Shown here: positions 15,447 through 20,753 of the stretch, in pieces
Numbering within the stretch: position 1 is the stretch's first letter
Layout of the letters: the number at the start of each line of letters is the position of its first letter
Assembly: GCF_008087625.1 (NCBI RefSeq)
Contig: NZ_CP042997.1
Coordinates: 7,006,001 to 7,070,000 of the forward strand
From: Aquisphaera giovannonii
GTDB taxonomy: Bacteria; Planctomycetota; Planctomycetia; Isosphaerales; Isosphaeraceae
Direction: 5' to 3'
Length of the DNA stretch: 64,000 nt
The notes under the pieces: generated by a model
Told to the model about the DNA's origin: nothing
Seen by the model: the letters and a program-made list of their open reading frames with translations, nothing else
Databases searched by the model: none
Position numbers and translations under genes: made by a program

Positions 15447-17327
15447 ATGAAGACCCCACGAGAGGCACGTCGTCGCCTGTTCATCGCCGCGGTCCTCGCC
15501 CTCCTCCCCCCGCACCGGCCGGACGCGGCGGGGGCCGAGGCCGATCCGCGGGCGGGCCGCGGGGACGAGCGCCCCGGCGAGGTGCTCGAGCGTGCCGGCC
15601 AGCGGGGCCTCGACGGCCGGCTCGCCGGGGATCCCCGATCGGGGTTCTCATTCATCCCCGAGGGCGGCCGCGCGCCGATCCCGCTGAAGGCGGGCGCGGT
15701 CGTCGCCTTCCGGCCGACGGCGGAGACGCCCTCGGCCATCCCGCCCCCGTTCCGCGTCCGCGTGGGCGAGTCGGCGAGCCTCTCGGGGACGATCCGCGAG
15801 CTCGGCGAGGACCGGGTCGCGATCCGCGTCCCCTGGCAGCCTGCCGACGTCCGGATCGTGCGCCGGGCCGTGCAGTCGATCGTCCAGCGTTCCGGCGAGG
15901 CCAAGGTCTTCGCCGATTCGTTCGAGCGGATCGAGCCGTCGCGATGGGCGGCCCGGGGGAGGGCGGAGTTGAGGTCGGCCGCCGAGGGGCGCGGCGTGCG
16001 GCTCGCCGCCCCGGGATCCTCGCTGCTCCATCGCCTCGCCGAGCCGCTGGCGTCCGGGCGCCTGGACGTCGCCTTCCTGGATGACGCCGCGATCGCGCCG
16101 GGACGCCGATGGACCGCGGACCTGACGTTCCGCGGGCCCGCCGGGCCGGCCAGCGTCCGGGTCGTCCTCGGCCGTGACGAGGAGAGCCTGGCCGTGGAGT
16201 GCCCGGACGGCCCGGCCCTCGCGGTGCAGCGGCTCGCCAGGGTCCGGGGCTGGCGGCGGCTCTCCATCCGCTTCGGCCCCGAGCAGACCGAGATCTCCGT
16301 GGACGGCCGAGAGCTGGCCCACGGCAAGGGGCCGTCGGGGCCGCTCGAAGCCTTCGCGTTCCGCGCCGAGGGGCCCGAGGAGGGGAAGGGGGCCGGGGAG
16401 CCCGCCGGACTCATCGGCGGGGTCCAGCTCGTGCGATTCGCCGAGACGCCCGCGAGCCTGGAGATCGACCCGTCGCAGGATGAGGTCCGGCTCGTGGTCG
16501 GGGACCAGCTCTACGGATCGGTCCGCGGGGGCGACGGCGATCGGGTGGAGGTCGTCGTGGACGACAAGGCCGTCGGCGTCGACTGGGACGGCGTCAGCGG
16601 GCTCTATTTCCGCCGCCAGGCCGTGGCCTCTCGCCCCGTCGAGGGCCTGCTGGCCAGGGTGGACTGGCTCGCCACGCCCGGCGAGCCGCAGGCGAGTCGC
16701 GAGCTCGATCACGCGGATGGGGCGATCTCGGCGTTCGACTCCGCGGCCCTCACGCTGGAGACGCCGTACGCGGGCACGCTGGTGATCCCTCGCGGCCGGC
16801 TCACGCGCATCCGCCTGGATGACGCGGCCTGGCGCGTGGTCATCGATCCGGCGGCACATCACCTGGGGGATAACGTCTCGACCTCGCCCCCGCTCCTCGA
16901 TCCCCCGCTGCCCGAGGGCGGGCTGCTCGTCCGCAGCTTCGACCTGCCCGAGGCCCCGGCGGCCGATCGTCCGGCCTTCGTCGTGCTGGACGTCGTCCAG
17001 GTGGTCGGCGAGGCGGCCGGGTCGGACTTCTCGCCCCTCGTTGCCAGGGGCGAGCTCCGGACGTACGTCGAGGCCAACGGCCGTCGCGTGGATTACATCA
17101 ATCGATATGTTGCGACCTCCAATGAGACGACGGAGAGGATCCGGATCCCCCTGCCGCCGGGCCTGCTGAAGGCGGGCCAGAATGAGCTTCGAATCGTCCA
17201 GACCGGCATCGCCAAGGATCCGACGTGGTTCGATGACCTGGGGATCCTCGGCGTCGCCATCGAGCTGGACGGCCCCCCGACCAGGACGCCGTCCGCCCCC
17301 GCACCGAGCCCCAACGCGAAACCGTGA
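15447..17327 (+). CDS. Large secreted beta-rich protein of unknown function
   Basis: The 626-residue protein opens with MKTPREARRRLFIAAVLALL, a signal peptide with a basic head. The body is beta-rich by composition. Residues about 150-330 look like a concanavalin-type lectin/LamG-like sandwich (VFADSFERIEPSRWAARGRA, RVRGWRRLSIRFGPEQTEIS, VDGRELAHGKGPSG), a fold often found in planctomycete surface proteins. The C-terminal part (residues about 470-610) has a second beta-sandwich-like stretch. No catalytic motif is seen. The gene lies 4 bp before the diadenylate cyclase gene, which suggests co-transcription, though no functional link is evident. Confidence 0.6.
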   Translation: MKTPREARRRLFIAAVLALLPPHRPDAAGAEADPRAGRGDERPGEVLERAGQRGLDGRLAGDPRSGFSFIPEGGRAPIPLKAGAVVAFRPTAETPSAIPPPFRVRVGESASLSGTIRELGEDRVAIRVPWQPADVRIVRRAVQSIVQRSGEAKVFADSFERIEPSRWAARGRAELRSAAEGRGVRLAAPGSSLLHRLAEPLASGRLDVAFLDDAAIAPGRRWTADLTFRGPAGPASVRVVLGRDEESLAVECPDGPALAVQRLARVRGWRRLSIRFGPEQTEISVDGRELAHGKGPSGPLEAFAFRAEGPEEGKGAGEPAGLIGGVQLVRFAETPASLEIDPSQDEVRLVVGDQLYGSVRGGDGDRVEVVVDDKAVGVDWDGVSGLYFRRQAVASRPVEGLLARVDWLATPGEPQASRELDHADGAISAFDSAALTLETPYAGTLVIPRGRLTRIRLDDAAWRVVIDPAAHHLGDNVSTSPPLLDPPLPEGGLLVRSFDLPEAPAADRPAFVVLDVVQVVGEAAGSDFSPLVARGELRTYVEANGRRVDYINRYVATSNETTERIRIPLPPGLLKAGQNELRIVQTGIAKDPTWFDDLGILGVAIELDGPPTRTPSAPAPSPNAKP

Positions 17328-17331
17328 CCCG

Positions 17332-18243
17332 ATGACCGGCCCCCTCAAGATCCTGTCGAGGAGCATGGTGCGGCACTCGCACGCCATCGCGCGGGAGGTC
17401 GGCGCCCGCGTGATCATGGTCCACGCGGACGTCATCGTCGAAGGTGGCGAGCTGCAGGCGCTCGTCGAGGACGTGAATTTCCGGGTGATCCTCGTCTCCC
17501 GCAAGGCGGGGTTCCACGCGCCGGGGGGCCTCGAGGAGATGTGCTCGGTCGTCCACATCCCGGACATCGCGATGACGCGGGCGGGGCAGGTCAAGGTCGC
17601 GACGCTCGTGGCGGCGGCCGAGAGCCTGATCCAGGCCGGCGACCGGATCCTCTGCCTGACGGGGATCGACGGGTCGAACGCGATCGACACGATGATGGTC
17701 CTGGACATGGGGACCGAGATCGAGCTGTTCACCTCGATGGCGGCGGACCCGCTGCCCAAGGACGTCGCCCCGGCCGTCTTCGAGCGCATCCTGACCCTCG
17801 CCAGCGAGCTCGGCGTCGAGGGTCGCGAGGGCCGGGCCGTCGGCACGCTCTTCGTCGTCGGCGACCACGAGCGGACGCTCTCGCAGAGCCATCAGCTCGT
17901 GTTCAACCCGTTCCACGGGTATCCCGAGGAGGAGCGCAACATCCTCGACCCGAGGCTGGAGGAGACCATCAAGGAGTTCTCCGCCATCGACGGCGCGTTC
18001 GTCGTCCGCGGCGACGGCGTGGTCCTCAGCGCGGGGCGCTACCTGGCGCCGCGGGGCAAGCTCGACGAGCCGCTCCCGCAGGGCCTGGGGACCCGCCACG
18101 AGGCCGCCGCCACCGTCACGGTGACGACCTCAGCCCTGGCCGTCTGCGTCTCGCAGTCCACGGGCACCGTCTCGATCTTCAAGCGCGGCCGGCTCATCCT
18201 GGATATCCAGAAACCCCGGGGCCAGGGCACCGACGGGCTCTAG
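17332..18243 (+). CDS. DisA_N-type diadenylate cyclase (c-di-AMP synthase), putative
   Basis: 303 residues from ATG 17332. The C-terminal third has the two signature motifs of DAC domains: DGA at 220-222 (SAIDGAFVVRGDGVVLSAGR) and the RHxxA motif at 255-259 (GLGTRHEAAATVTVTTSALA), followed by SQSTGTVSIFKRGRLI. These bind ATP and metal to make c-di-AMP. Residues 1-150 form a separate alpha/beta domain (ILSRSMVRHSHAIAREVGAR, DRILCLTGIDGSNAIDT), reminiscent of the pyruvate-kinase C-terminal fold. There are no membrane helices as in CdaA and no helix-hairpin-helix DNA-binding tail as in DisA. It is a soluble, distinct type. Catalysis is inferred from motifs. Confidence 0.78.
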   Translation: MTGPLKILSRSMVRHSHAIAREVGARVIMVHADVIVEGGELQALVEDVNFRVILVSRKAGFHAPGGLEEMCSVVHIPDIAMTRAGQVKVATLVAAAESLIQAGDRILCLTGIDGSNAIDTMMVLDMGTEIELFTSMAADPLPKDVAPAVFERILTLASELGVEGREGRAVGTLFVVGDHERTLSQSHQLVFNPFHGYPEEERNILDPRLEETIKEFSAIDGAFVVRGDGVVLSAGRYLAPRGKLDEPLPQGLGTRHEAAATVTVTTSALAVCVSQSTGTVSIFKRGRLILDIQKPRGQGTDGL

Positions 18244-18580: not shown

Positions 18581-20209
18581 CTACCGACCCTTGTTGAGCT
18601 GGTCGTAGTAGGAGCGGATATGCTTCTCGACGTTCCGGGGGATCTTCTGGTTGGTGAGGGCGTCGGCGGCGTTGGCTGAGGCGGCGTCGACCTCGCCCTG
18701 GATGTCGATGACGCTCTGGCCCTTGACGGTCTTGCTCGGCTGGGTGAGCCCCTGGAGGACGGCCCTGCCCTTGCGGAGCTGCTGCTGGACCTTGGTGGCG
18801 TAGGTGGCGGTGTCGTCCTGGGCCTCGGGGCGGTCTCCTTCACCCCGGCCGCGGCCGAGGCCGTTGCCCATGCCGCGCCGCATGCCGTCCAGCCCGGCCA
18901 TGCCGGTGTCGTTCTGGCCCATCTGGTTCATGCCCTGCCCGTCCATGGCGTTCTTGGAGTCCTGGATGTCTGCCATCGCCCCGTCCAGGGCCTGCATCTC
19001 CTCGAGCTGCTTGGCCATGCTCTCGAGCTGCTGCTGCGTCATGCCCAGCGACTCGGCCGCCTGCTTCATGTCCCCTCGCTTGAGGGCCTCCTGCGCCTGG
19101 CCCAGCTTGGAGGCCATCTGGGAGAGCTGCTGGAGGCCCTTGCCCTGCTGCTTGAGCTTCTCCATCTCCTTGTCGTATTGCTCCTTGCTCAGGCCCCCAT
19201 TCTTGAGCGCCTCGTCGAGCTGCTTCTTGCGCTCGGCCATGTTGGCGGCCTCGCTCAGCTTCTTGGCCATCTCGCCGAGCTGCTGCTCCAGGGCCTTCTT
19301 CTCGGCCTGGGTCATCTCGCCCTTCTGGAGCTTCTCCTGGAGCTGCTTGATCTGCTCCTCGGCCTTCTTGAAGTCGCCCCGGGCCAGGTCCTTGGCGAGC
19401 TGGTCGGCCGGGCCGTTCTCGCCCATCTCCTTGAGCTGCTGGAGCTGACGGTTGACCTGGTCCGGGCTGCCGAGCTGCTTCTGCCGCTCCTTGAGGGCGT
19501 CGGACAGCTTGTTCATCTGGACGAGCAGCTTGTCCTTCTGGGCCGGGGGGGCCTTGGCCATGTCCTCGGCCTGCTTCTGGATCTGGGCGAGCAGCTTCTC
19601 GGCCTCGGGGAACTTGTCCTTGTCGATCGCCTGCCGCTGGGTGGAGATCTTCTCGGTCAGCGCCTCGGTCTGCTTCGCCAGGCGCTTGCCGTCGGCCTGG
19701 GCGTCCGTCTTGGCGACGGCCGACCGCTGGGCCCAGGCGGGCAGGAAGAGCGTCCCCACGGCCAGGGCCGCCGGGATCAGGACGACCCAGGCGCGGCGGG
19801 GGAGGCGGAGCCCGAAGGGCGACGTCACGTCGAGCGCCTGGACCTTCCTTCGCGCGTCCGCCATGAGGGCACGCCCGGCCGGGGTGTCGCGGAGCTCGGC
19901 CGGCAGGGTCAGCGCGGTGCTGAGCCGCTCGTTGAGGTGGAAGGCCCGATCGATCGCGACCGCGGCGTCGAGCCGGCTGGGGCCGGTGAGGATGGCGACC
20001 CCCGCCGCGATGAACGCGCCCACGCCGGAGGCGATCACGAATGGCAGCCACTGCGGACCGGGGATCGCCCGGTCGAGGAACCTGCTCGCCGCGAGGACCA
20101 CCGCCACCGCGACCAGGGCGAGGGCCAGCGTCCAGACGAAGGTCGCGACGAAGCGTTGCAGCCTGAGCCGCCGAAAGACCTGCGCCACCGGCTTTTCCAG
20201 CTCGCGCAT
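18581..20209 (-). CDS. Membrane-anchored coiled-coil protein, function unknown
   Basis: This 542-residue protein begins at ATG 20209 with GGGGAGGAACG before it. Three hydrophobic segments lie near 20-41, 53-74 and 136-158. Between the second and third is a short soluble segment (DAAVAIDRAFHLNERLSTAL). From about 170 to 420 it is an almost continuous Gln/Lys/Glu/Leu coiled coil (QLKEMGENGPADQLAKDLAR, KALEQQLGEMAKKLSEAANM), and then comes a Gly/Met/Asn-rich linker. The upstream part resembles membrane proteins found near Bat/MoxR clusters, but no family is confirmed. It could act as an envelope scaffold or sensor. It is transcribed away from the sigma factor gene. Confidence 0.6.
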   Translation of the reverse strand: MRELEKPVAQVFRRLRLQRFVATFVWTLALALVAVAVVLAASRFLDRAIPGPQWLPFVIASGVGAFIAAGVAILTGPSRLDAAVAIDRAFHLNERLSTALTLPAELRDTPAGRALMADARRKVQALDVTSPFGLRLPRRAWVVLIPAALAVGTLFLPAWAQRSAVAKTDAQADGKRLAKQTEALTEKISTQRQAIDKDKFPEAEKLLAQIQKQAEDMAKAPPAQKDKLLVQMNKLSDALKERQKQLGSPDQVNRQLQQLKEMGENGPADQLAKDLARGDFKKAEEQIKQLQEKLQKGEMTQAEKKALEQQLGEMAKKLSEAANMAERKKQLDEALKNGGLSKEQYDKEMEKLKQQGKGLQQLSQMASKLGQAQEALKRGDMKQAAESLGMTQQQLESMAKQLEEMQALDGAMADIQDSKNAMDGQGMNQMGQNDTGMAGLDGMRRGMGNGLGRGRGEGDRPEAQDDTATYATKVQQQLRKGRAVLQGLTQPSKTVKGQSVIDIQGEVDAASANAADALTNQKIPRNVEKHIRSYYDQLNKGR

Positions 20210-20753
20210 CGCGTTCCTCCCCGAAGGCGTGTGCGGCCCGGAGGCCGGGGTGGGCACTCTGACGAACGTCGTAAGGCAAGTCTATCGGCGGCGCCGAGGC
20301 TTTTCAAGGTGCGATCCGCGTTCGGCTTGGGGCCGACGGACGGCCGGAAATGGGGCATCATCCCAAATGACCGGGGAGCCATCACGGGGAGGTTGACAGT
20401 TGGCACCGCCCCGCATGTACGGGTGACCACAATCGTCAGATCGCGGTTCGGACGGGCGAAGCCTCCAGCCTCGCACGTCAGTGCGATCCGAGGCCGGGCG
20501 GCGTCTCCCGGCTCGCCGGCGTCGCCGCATGCCTGTCCGGCTCACGCCGGAGGCTGGAGGCTTCGCCCGTCCGAACCACCCGCTCACGCGGGTGGTCACG
20601 TGTCCAGGGATTCCCTGGCGAAGTGTCAAGGTGGACTTCAGCATTTGGGACGATCCCGGAAATGGGGATCTTTTCCGACTTTCCCGGATTGGTCGGGGGA
20701 CGTGCCGCACTAAGCTGGGTGGGGAAAACGATCCGACGGGGGAGATCCCGGAG
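20210..20753. other. Divergent intergenic region holding an inverted repeat
   Basis: There is no gene between the divergently transcribed coiled-coil protein (minus) and the ECF sigma factor (plus). It contains an inverted-repeat element (20423-20599, described separately). The sequence between 20600 and 20753 probably holds the sigma gene promoter; I could not assign a -35/-10 pair with confidence. Confidence 0.4.
20423..20599. repeat. Inverted-repeat element with 27-bp perfect arms
   Basis: Bases 20445-20471 and 20551-20577 are perfect 27-bp inverted repeats containing TTCGGACGGGCGAAGCCTCC. Outside them GTGACCAC (20423-20430) and GTGGTCAC (20592-20599) are also complementary, so the foldback extends outwards with an imperfect spacer. 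The 79-bp loop is G+C-rich and itself partly self-complementary. No gene is inside. It resembles a short palindromic dispersed element; whether it recurs elsewhere in the genome needs a search. Confidence 0.65.

Follow-up and report, generated by a model that had tools for sequence, protein, structure and literature searches.

Which class of diadenylate cyclase is encoded at positions 17332 to 18243 of the window (the whole 64,000-nucleotide stretch of Aquisphaera giovannonii DNA analysed here), and what might control its activity? The original prediction, made from the sequence alone, described a soluble diadenylate cyclase with an unrecognised N-terminal half. The features of the locus are as follows.

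17332..18243, + strand: dacZ-type diadenylate cyclase gene, "A type", 303 aa (open reading frame, Pfam, orthologues)
17359..17733, + strand: DacZ_P/pyruvate-kinase-C-like sensor domain, residues 10–134 of the window DacZ (PF21755, fold, profile)
17812..18192, + strand: DAC catalytic domain, residues 161–287 (PF02457, 76.7 bits, cut-off 27; structure match)
17989..17997, + strand: DGA motif, residues 220–222 (sequence and alignment)
18088..18108, + strand: GTRHEAA motif, residues 253–259 (alignment)
15447..17327, + strand: upstream co-directional gene, 626 aa, with a signal-peptide-like start as judged by eye; its stop lies 4 bases before dacZ
18581..20257, − strand: convergent neighbour, 558 aa, with one strongly hydrophobic stretch, coiled-coil-like; outside the system

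The dacZ frame opens with an ATG, 4 bases past the stop codon of the upstream gene. The GC content at its three codon positions (0.69/0.44/0.97), together with the conservation of the protein, indicated that this is a real gene. A close A-type orthologue was present in 32 of the 45 genomes of the family, its own genome counted. The remaining 31 orthologues shared 58%–94% identity with the window DacZ, the one in genome G016 covering residues 117–303 only, and the DacZ of Aquisphaera insulae was the closest among the named records found (94%).

The window protein combines a C-terminal DAC domain carrying DGA and RH motifs with an N-terminal domain of pyruvate-kinase-C-like (PK_C-like) fold, and it has no transmembrane helices. 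Judged by these features, it is a member of the already described DacZ/CdaZ class. A membrane-type (CdaA) or DisA-type cyclase was ruled out by the family scores, which were 28.4 bits for the CdaA/DacA model TIGR00159 (cut-off 188.8) and 27.1 bits for the DisA family model (cut-off 201), and by the lack of a membrane-helix-like stretch (highest 19-residue Kyte–Doolittle mean, 1.32) and of a DisA-type tail, as only 16 residues follow the DAC domain. Pfam, hydrophobicity and the protein end thus agree with the original prediction of a candidate soluble c-di-AMP synthase lacking the CdaA helices and the DisA tail. The DAC fold and motifs are common to the window DacZ and to CdaA, CdaS, CdaM and DisA; in contrast to these proteins, it has neither a membrane-helix-like stretch nor a DNA-binding tail, and its sequence matches to solved structures begin at residue 204 or later. 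A PTS_EIIA_2 domain was absent from the window DacZ in the Pfam scan of the protein. An anti-phage role was also considered and rejected: PADLOC offered only a diadenylate cyclase model for the window DacZ (46.5 bits) and none for another DAC-like protein of the genome, L003. No RNA element reached its Rfam gathering score in the 64-kb window.

The catalytic motifs were followed through an alignment of 80 sequences, some of them partial, comprising the window DacZ, 68 loci and 11 DacZ proteins of a second type. Asp220–Gly221 and Arg255–His256, the latter opening the RHEAA motif at residues 255–259, were kept in 80 of 80 sequences. The loss of motif residues among orthologues, which would have spoken against the original prediction, was not seen. 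Ala222 was found in 78 of the 80, the exceptions being Gly in the A. insulae sequence L044 and Ser in the Singulisphaera acidiphila sequence L049. An AlphaFold2 model of the window DacZ was built from alignment A1, which takes in 54 of the 69 available sequences (mean pLDDT, 85.8; pTM, 0.85), and was compared with known structures using VIA-align. Its DAC part matched CdaA, DisA and the Bacillus cereus protein 2fb5 at Z scores of 13.7–15.2. The match to 2fb5 covered residues 83–292 (Z 15.2, rmsd 2.5, 140 aligned), and that to CdaA (8c4n) covered residues 143–293 (Z 14.7, rmsd 2.7, 131 aligned). Within A1, the DAC domain was matched by all 54 members, DacZ_P by 48 and PK_C by 11 (E ≤ 0.01 in each case), and PK_C matches of relatives in a Pfam scan scored 20.9–24.0 bits, under the cut-off of 28.

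The N-terminal half is a recognised domain. The curated Pfam family PF21755 ("DacZ_P, probable sensor domain") covers residues 10–134 at 99.4 bits (cut-off 27.4), and a DacZ family with a PK_C-like N-terminal domain is already described in passages of PMC6741144, so this part of the original description was incorrect. The comparison of residues 1–150 with pyruvate kinase C domains, proposed at the same time, gave a positive result: residues 6–132 of the model matched the C domain of pyruvate kinase 5ws9 (Z 14.1, rmsd 2.3, 120 aligned). The suggested role as a sensor stands as likely, whereas its novelty does not; a new sensor domain was ruled out by the Pfam coverage and the predicted fold. 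A profile of 22 N-terminal halves (A3) weakly matched residues 488–528 of pyruvate kinase M1 (best E, 0.0025). Pyruvate kinase thus shares a fold with this half of the window DacZ, which, in contrast, has no kinase domains. Arg83, Gly111 and Asp119 were invariant among the 22 aligned halves and may line a ligand pocket. Since Gly111 and Asp119 fall in the stretch aligned with pyruvate kinase 488–528, which contains the effector loop in pyruvate kinase, a phosphorylated metabolite or a nucleotide would be the likeliest effector.

In passages of Braun et al. (2019, PMC6741144), Haloferax volcanii DacZ produces c-di-AMP with Mn2+ in vitro, DacZ and DacY/CdaZ are argued to be one family with a PK_C-like N-terminal domain, and the DacZ/CdaZ family is stated to occur in some bacteria; Isosphaera pallida, Rhodopirellula islandica and Planctomicrobium piriforme are among the sequences of the DacZ tree published there, and the DacC and DacD classes include spirochaete, deltaproteobacterial and verrucomicrobial proteins. 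H. volcanii DacZ and Methanocaldococcus jannaschii CdaZ (DacY), as portrayed in those passages, place an N-terminal PK_C-like domain before a C-terminal DAC, as does the window protein. In contrast to them, the window protein is bacterial and scored 129 bits, below the required 430, against its top NCBIfam model, DacZ NF041371 (the Diadnylcyc_Halo equivalog). It also differs in matching Pfam DacZ_P and no other DacZ N-domain model, and in having an exported-looking, beta-rich protein as its operon partner. The remark that c-di-AMP signalling is little explored in planctomycetes held up, in that a literature search gave no paper on the subject, judged by title.

The 10.5-Mb genome contained three DAC matches, namely, the window gene, L133 and L003. 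L133 is a second DacZ with a DacZ_P–DAC arrangement, here called the B type; taken as a long match at 36%–44% identity, this type occurred in 39 of the 45 family genomes (hand count). The search for phosphodiesterases and receptors, another check proposed with the original prediction, yielded candidates for both. A stand-alone 363-aa DHH–DHHA1 protein (L115), both domains of which exceeded the cut-off, is a candidate phosphodiesterase. Candidate targets were an RCK-type channel composed of ion-channel, TrkA_N and TrkA_C domains (L117) and a 383-aa KdpD–Usp protein (L119:1057-2205, − strand), which has a sensor and a Usp domain and no histidine kinase part. By eye, its Usp domain contains SxS and a Tyr at roughly the expected spacing, a partial fit to the published (A/G/C)XSXSX2N(Y/F). 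The search for c-di-AMP riboswitches reached 13.7 bits at best (gathering score, 38), and that for the PII-like receptor CdAMP_rec found none. This large planctomycete genome thus holds likely parts of a c-di-AMP pathway, including two DacZ-type cyclases, which makes a role for c-di-AMP in it testable.

As a separate observation, the KdpD–Usp gene lies near a KdpB-like frame, as judged by eye. The third DAC-like protein (L003:277-1956, + strand; 559 aa) has a weak DAC domain in which DGA is kept and the RH motif is missing; Pfam matched nothing in the first 400 residues of this protein.

In the reading that we favour, with a probability of roughly 0.87, an oligomeric DacZ senses a metabolite through its PK_C-like domain and tunes its predicted synthesis of c-di-AMP, a messenger that would act on potassium handling. 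From the computed domains, predicted fold, motif conservation and candidate pathway parts, we infer the activity, the oligomer, the ligand and the targets. The C-terminal DAC domains of at least two subunits would come together and condense two ATP molecules into c-di-AMP, as the family and the motifs suggest, and the N-terminal domain would set cyclase activity upon sensing its ligand. The DHH–DHHA1 protein would remove c-di-AMP, and the RCK-type channel and the KdpD–Usp protein would presumably mediate its action on K+ handling, as in other phyla. Weighing against this reading are the NCBIfam DacZ score below its cut-off, the two replacements of the DGA Ala, the partial Usp motif and the negative outcome of the riboswitch and PII-like receptor searches.

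The 626-aa protein encoded upstream had no Pfam or NCBIfam match. Its predicted model was beta-rich (mean pLDDT, 84.2), with a concanavalin/GH16-like jelly roll at approximately residues 148–333 (best Z, 17.2); the fold match spans mainly these residues and carries no claim of an enzymatic role. Of the 32 A-type genomes, 30 have this partner directly beside dacZ and in the same orientation; of the two exceptions, one had the partner on another contig, and in the other it was not found. In 6 of 24 loci (L061, L062, L063, L064, L066 and L070), the partner stop and the dacZ start overlapped by 4 bases, with starts chosen by script. A distant partner (24%, E 1.8e-20) also lay upstream of dacZ in Planctomycetes bacterium Pan216. 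The partner was matched in 43 of the 45 family genomes, 12 of which had it without an A-type dacZ, some as partial or weak matches. In genome G021 (L132:5262-5315), dacZ is missing between the partner and the convergent gene, which lie 52 bases apart; this looks like a clean loss. Thus, given the adjacency in 30 of 32 genomes on the one hand and the 12 partner-only genomes and G021 on the other, the link between the partner and dacZ is real but not obligatory. A scan of seven window ORFs around dacZ turned up no MscS domain, a further contrast with the archaeal systems.

Beyond the known DacZ class, the interest lies in a different architecture of relatives. PF21755 was detected in 73 of the 392 genomes of a phylum sample (E ≤ 0.001), in 68 of them over the cut-off. 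Behind the long-frame matches were three-domain proteins composed of PTS_EIIA_2, DacZ_P and DAC; the idea that these matches were pyruvate kinases was dropped, as those read proved to be EIIA fusions. Examples are as follows.

L142:1080-2441, + strand: EIIA–DacZ fusion
L139:1045-2412, − strand: EIIA–DacZ fusion
L093:5341-6858, + strand: EIIA–DacZ fusion

Their DacZ_P and DAC parts are homologous to the window DacZ, which, in contrast, has no EIIA domain. Fusions accounted for 18 of the 68 DacZ loci, and 39 were found in all, 36 of them distinct after three duplicates were set aside. Pfam placed EIIA above its cut-off in all 12 fusion proteins scanned, which include records named Spirochaetes, Hydrogenedentota, Verrucomicrobia and Fibrobacter; DacZ_P was above the cut-off in seven of them, below it in two (L100 and L104) and unreported in three (L097, L098 and L110). 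In all 21 genomes picked for long frames and counted (G358 and G364 were left out), EIIA and DacZ_P occurred in the same stretch, 39–120 bases apart. The EIIA active-site His was kept in 34 of the 36 distinct fusions and was Gln in L089 and L091. An HPr and an EIIA_2 domain were present in 40 of 40 genomes tested, so phosphorylation of EIIA is possible in principle; the genome of the window DacZ has an EIIA frame and an HPr frame separated by approximately 220 bases. The unfused dacZ loci scanned contained no EIIA-like frame (flanks of up to approximately 6 kb, often shorter). These three-domain proteins, spread over several phyla, are possible PTS-controlled c-di-AMP synthases, and their extra domain may hint at what controls the window DacZ. 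No published report of an EIIA–DAC fusion was found among the titles and beginnings of abstracts listed, in a search that did not take in key reviews and thus does not establish absence from print; passages of PMC6741144 (in which PTS, EIIA and phosphotransferase are absent), PMC7288161 and PMC5575661 make no mention of one.

The DacZ_P–DAC tree was rooted at its midpoint and had no archaeal rows. It held 23 A-type rows (L052, L054, L056, L063 and L069 were left out), 10 unfused rows outside the A group, 11 B-type rows and 36 of the 39 fusions, the three duplicates being dropped; a further tree omitted L069, L105, L106 and L111. A supported (starred) group (97/96) united the A type with the unfused Thermodesulfobacteriota type and a single Myxococcales row; this group branched among the fused rows, and the B type lay on the other side. 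The fused label changed twice on the tree, one change being forced by the starred branches alone, and 5% of bootstrap trees contained a branch with the fused rows alone on one side. On the simplest reading of the tree, EIIA may have been lost at least once; such a loss may date to the ancestor of the window type, although the root is uncertain.

Three other explanations of the window protein were weighed against the metabolite-sensing cyclase. It could be a catalytically dead DAC that serves as a c-di-AMP receptor or a structural protein, and both the replacement of the DGA Ala in two of the 80 sequences and the degenerate third DAC of the same genome would fit such a fate; however, the Asp, Gly, Arg and His are unchanged throughout the alignment, and we regard this as highly improbable. 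Alternatively, the cyclase and its exported-looking partner could form an envelope-stress or osmotic module in which the partner reports outside conditions. The same-strand adjacency in nearly all A-type genomes, the stop/start overlaps at script-chosen starts and the distant partner preceding dacZ in Pan216 point in this direction. Nevertheless, the family genomes that have the partner (in some cases as partial or weak matches) and no A-type dacZ, as well as the state of G021, argue against a fixed module, and no membrane-spanning link from the partner to the cytoplasmic cyclase was seen; such a module therefore seems quite unlikely.

The third alternative, which we consider rather doubtful, holds that the window DacZ descends from EIIA–DacZ fusions, lost its EIIA and is now bound and regulated by a free EIIA whose gene lies close to that of HPr; the phosphorylation state of the PTS would then set the c-di-AMP level. 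The number of distinct fusion relatives, the Pfam confirmation of EIIA in every fusion protein scanned, the juxtaposition with DacZ_P in every long-frame genome counted, the kept active-site His, the position of the unfused A-type group among fused rows, and the co-occurrence of HPr and EIIA_2 are in line with this descent. On the other side, no EIIA-like frame accompanied unfused dacZ genes within the flanks scanned, the root is a midpoint one, support is low (85/89 and 83/26) for the forks by which the A-type group joins the fused rows, and only one label change is forced by supported branches. In addition, a tool warning indicated that long branches meet where F_L110 and F_L111 join the B type and where F_L098 joins F_L142.

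The metabolite-sensing cyclase thus remains our preferred explanation for the window protein itself. A broader proposal, which we put forward tentatively as possible rather than probable, is that DacZ cyclases are direct PTS outputs in several phyla. The fused EIIA would turn the PEP/PTS state into c-di-AMP and hence into potassium and osmotic control, and the window DacZ would represent a branch that dropped EIIA and now relies on either a free EIIA or the metabolite-sensing PK_C domain alone. To our knowledge, an input signal is known for only a minority of diadenylate cyclases. If the proposal is true, a built-in, phosphorylatable PTS domain would be a concrete, testable input linking c-di-AMP and potassium with the status of carbon, energy or nitrogen. 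A connection between PTS and potassium is plausible because, according to PMC9239096, unphosphorylated EIIA-Ntr (PtsN1) of Sinorhizobium binds KdpD. The fusions would use a second messenger for what EIIA-Ntr in proteobacteria achieves by binding KdpD directly.

TrkH and TrkA were also tried as general neighbours of dacZ and rejected, as a tblastn search with the L089 proteins matched only L089 and L091. At these two loci (L089:1208-4171 and L091:417-3338), which belong to related genomes, one of them named Fibrobacter, trkH and trkA lie beside the EIIA–DacZ gene.
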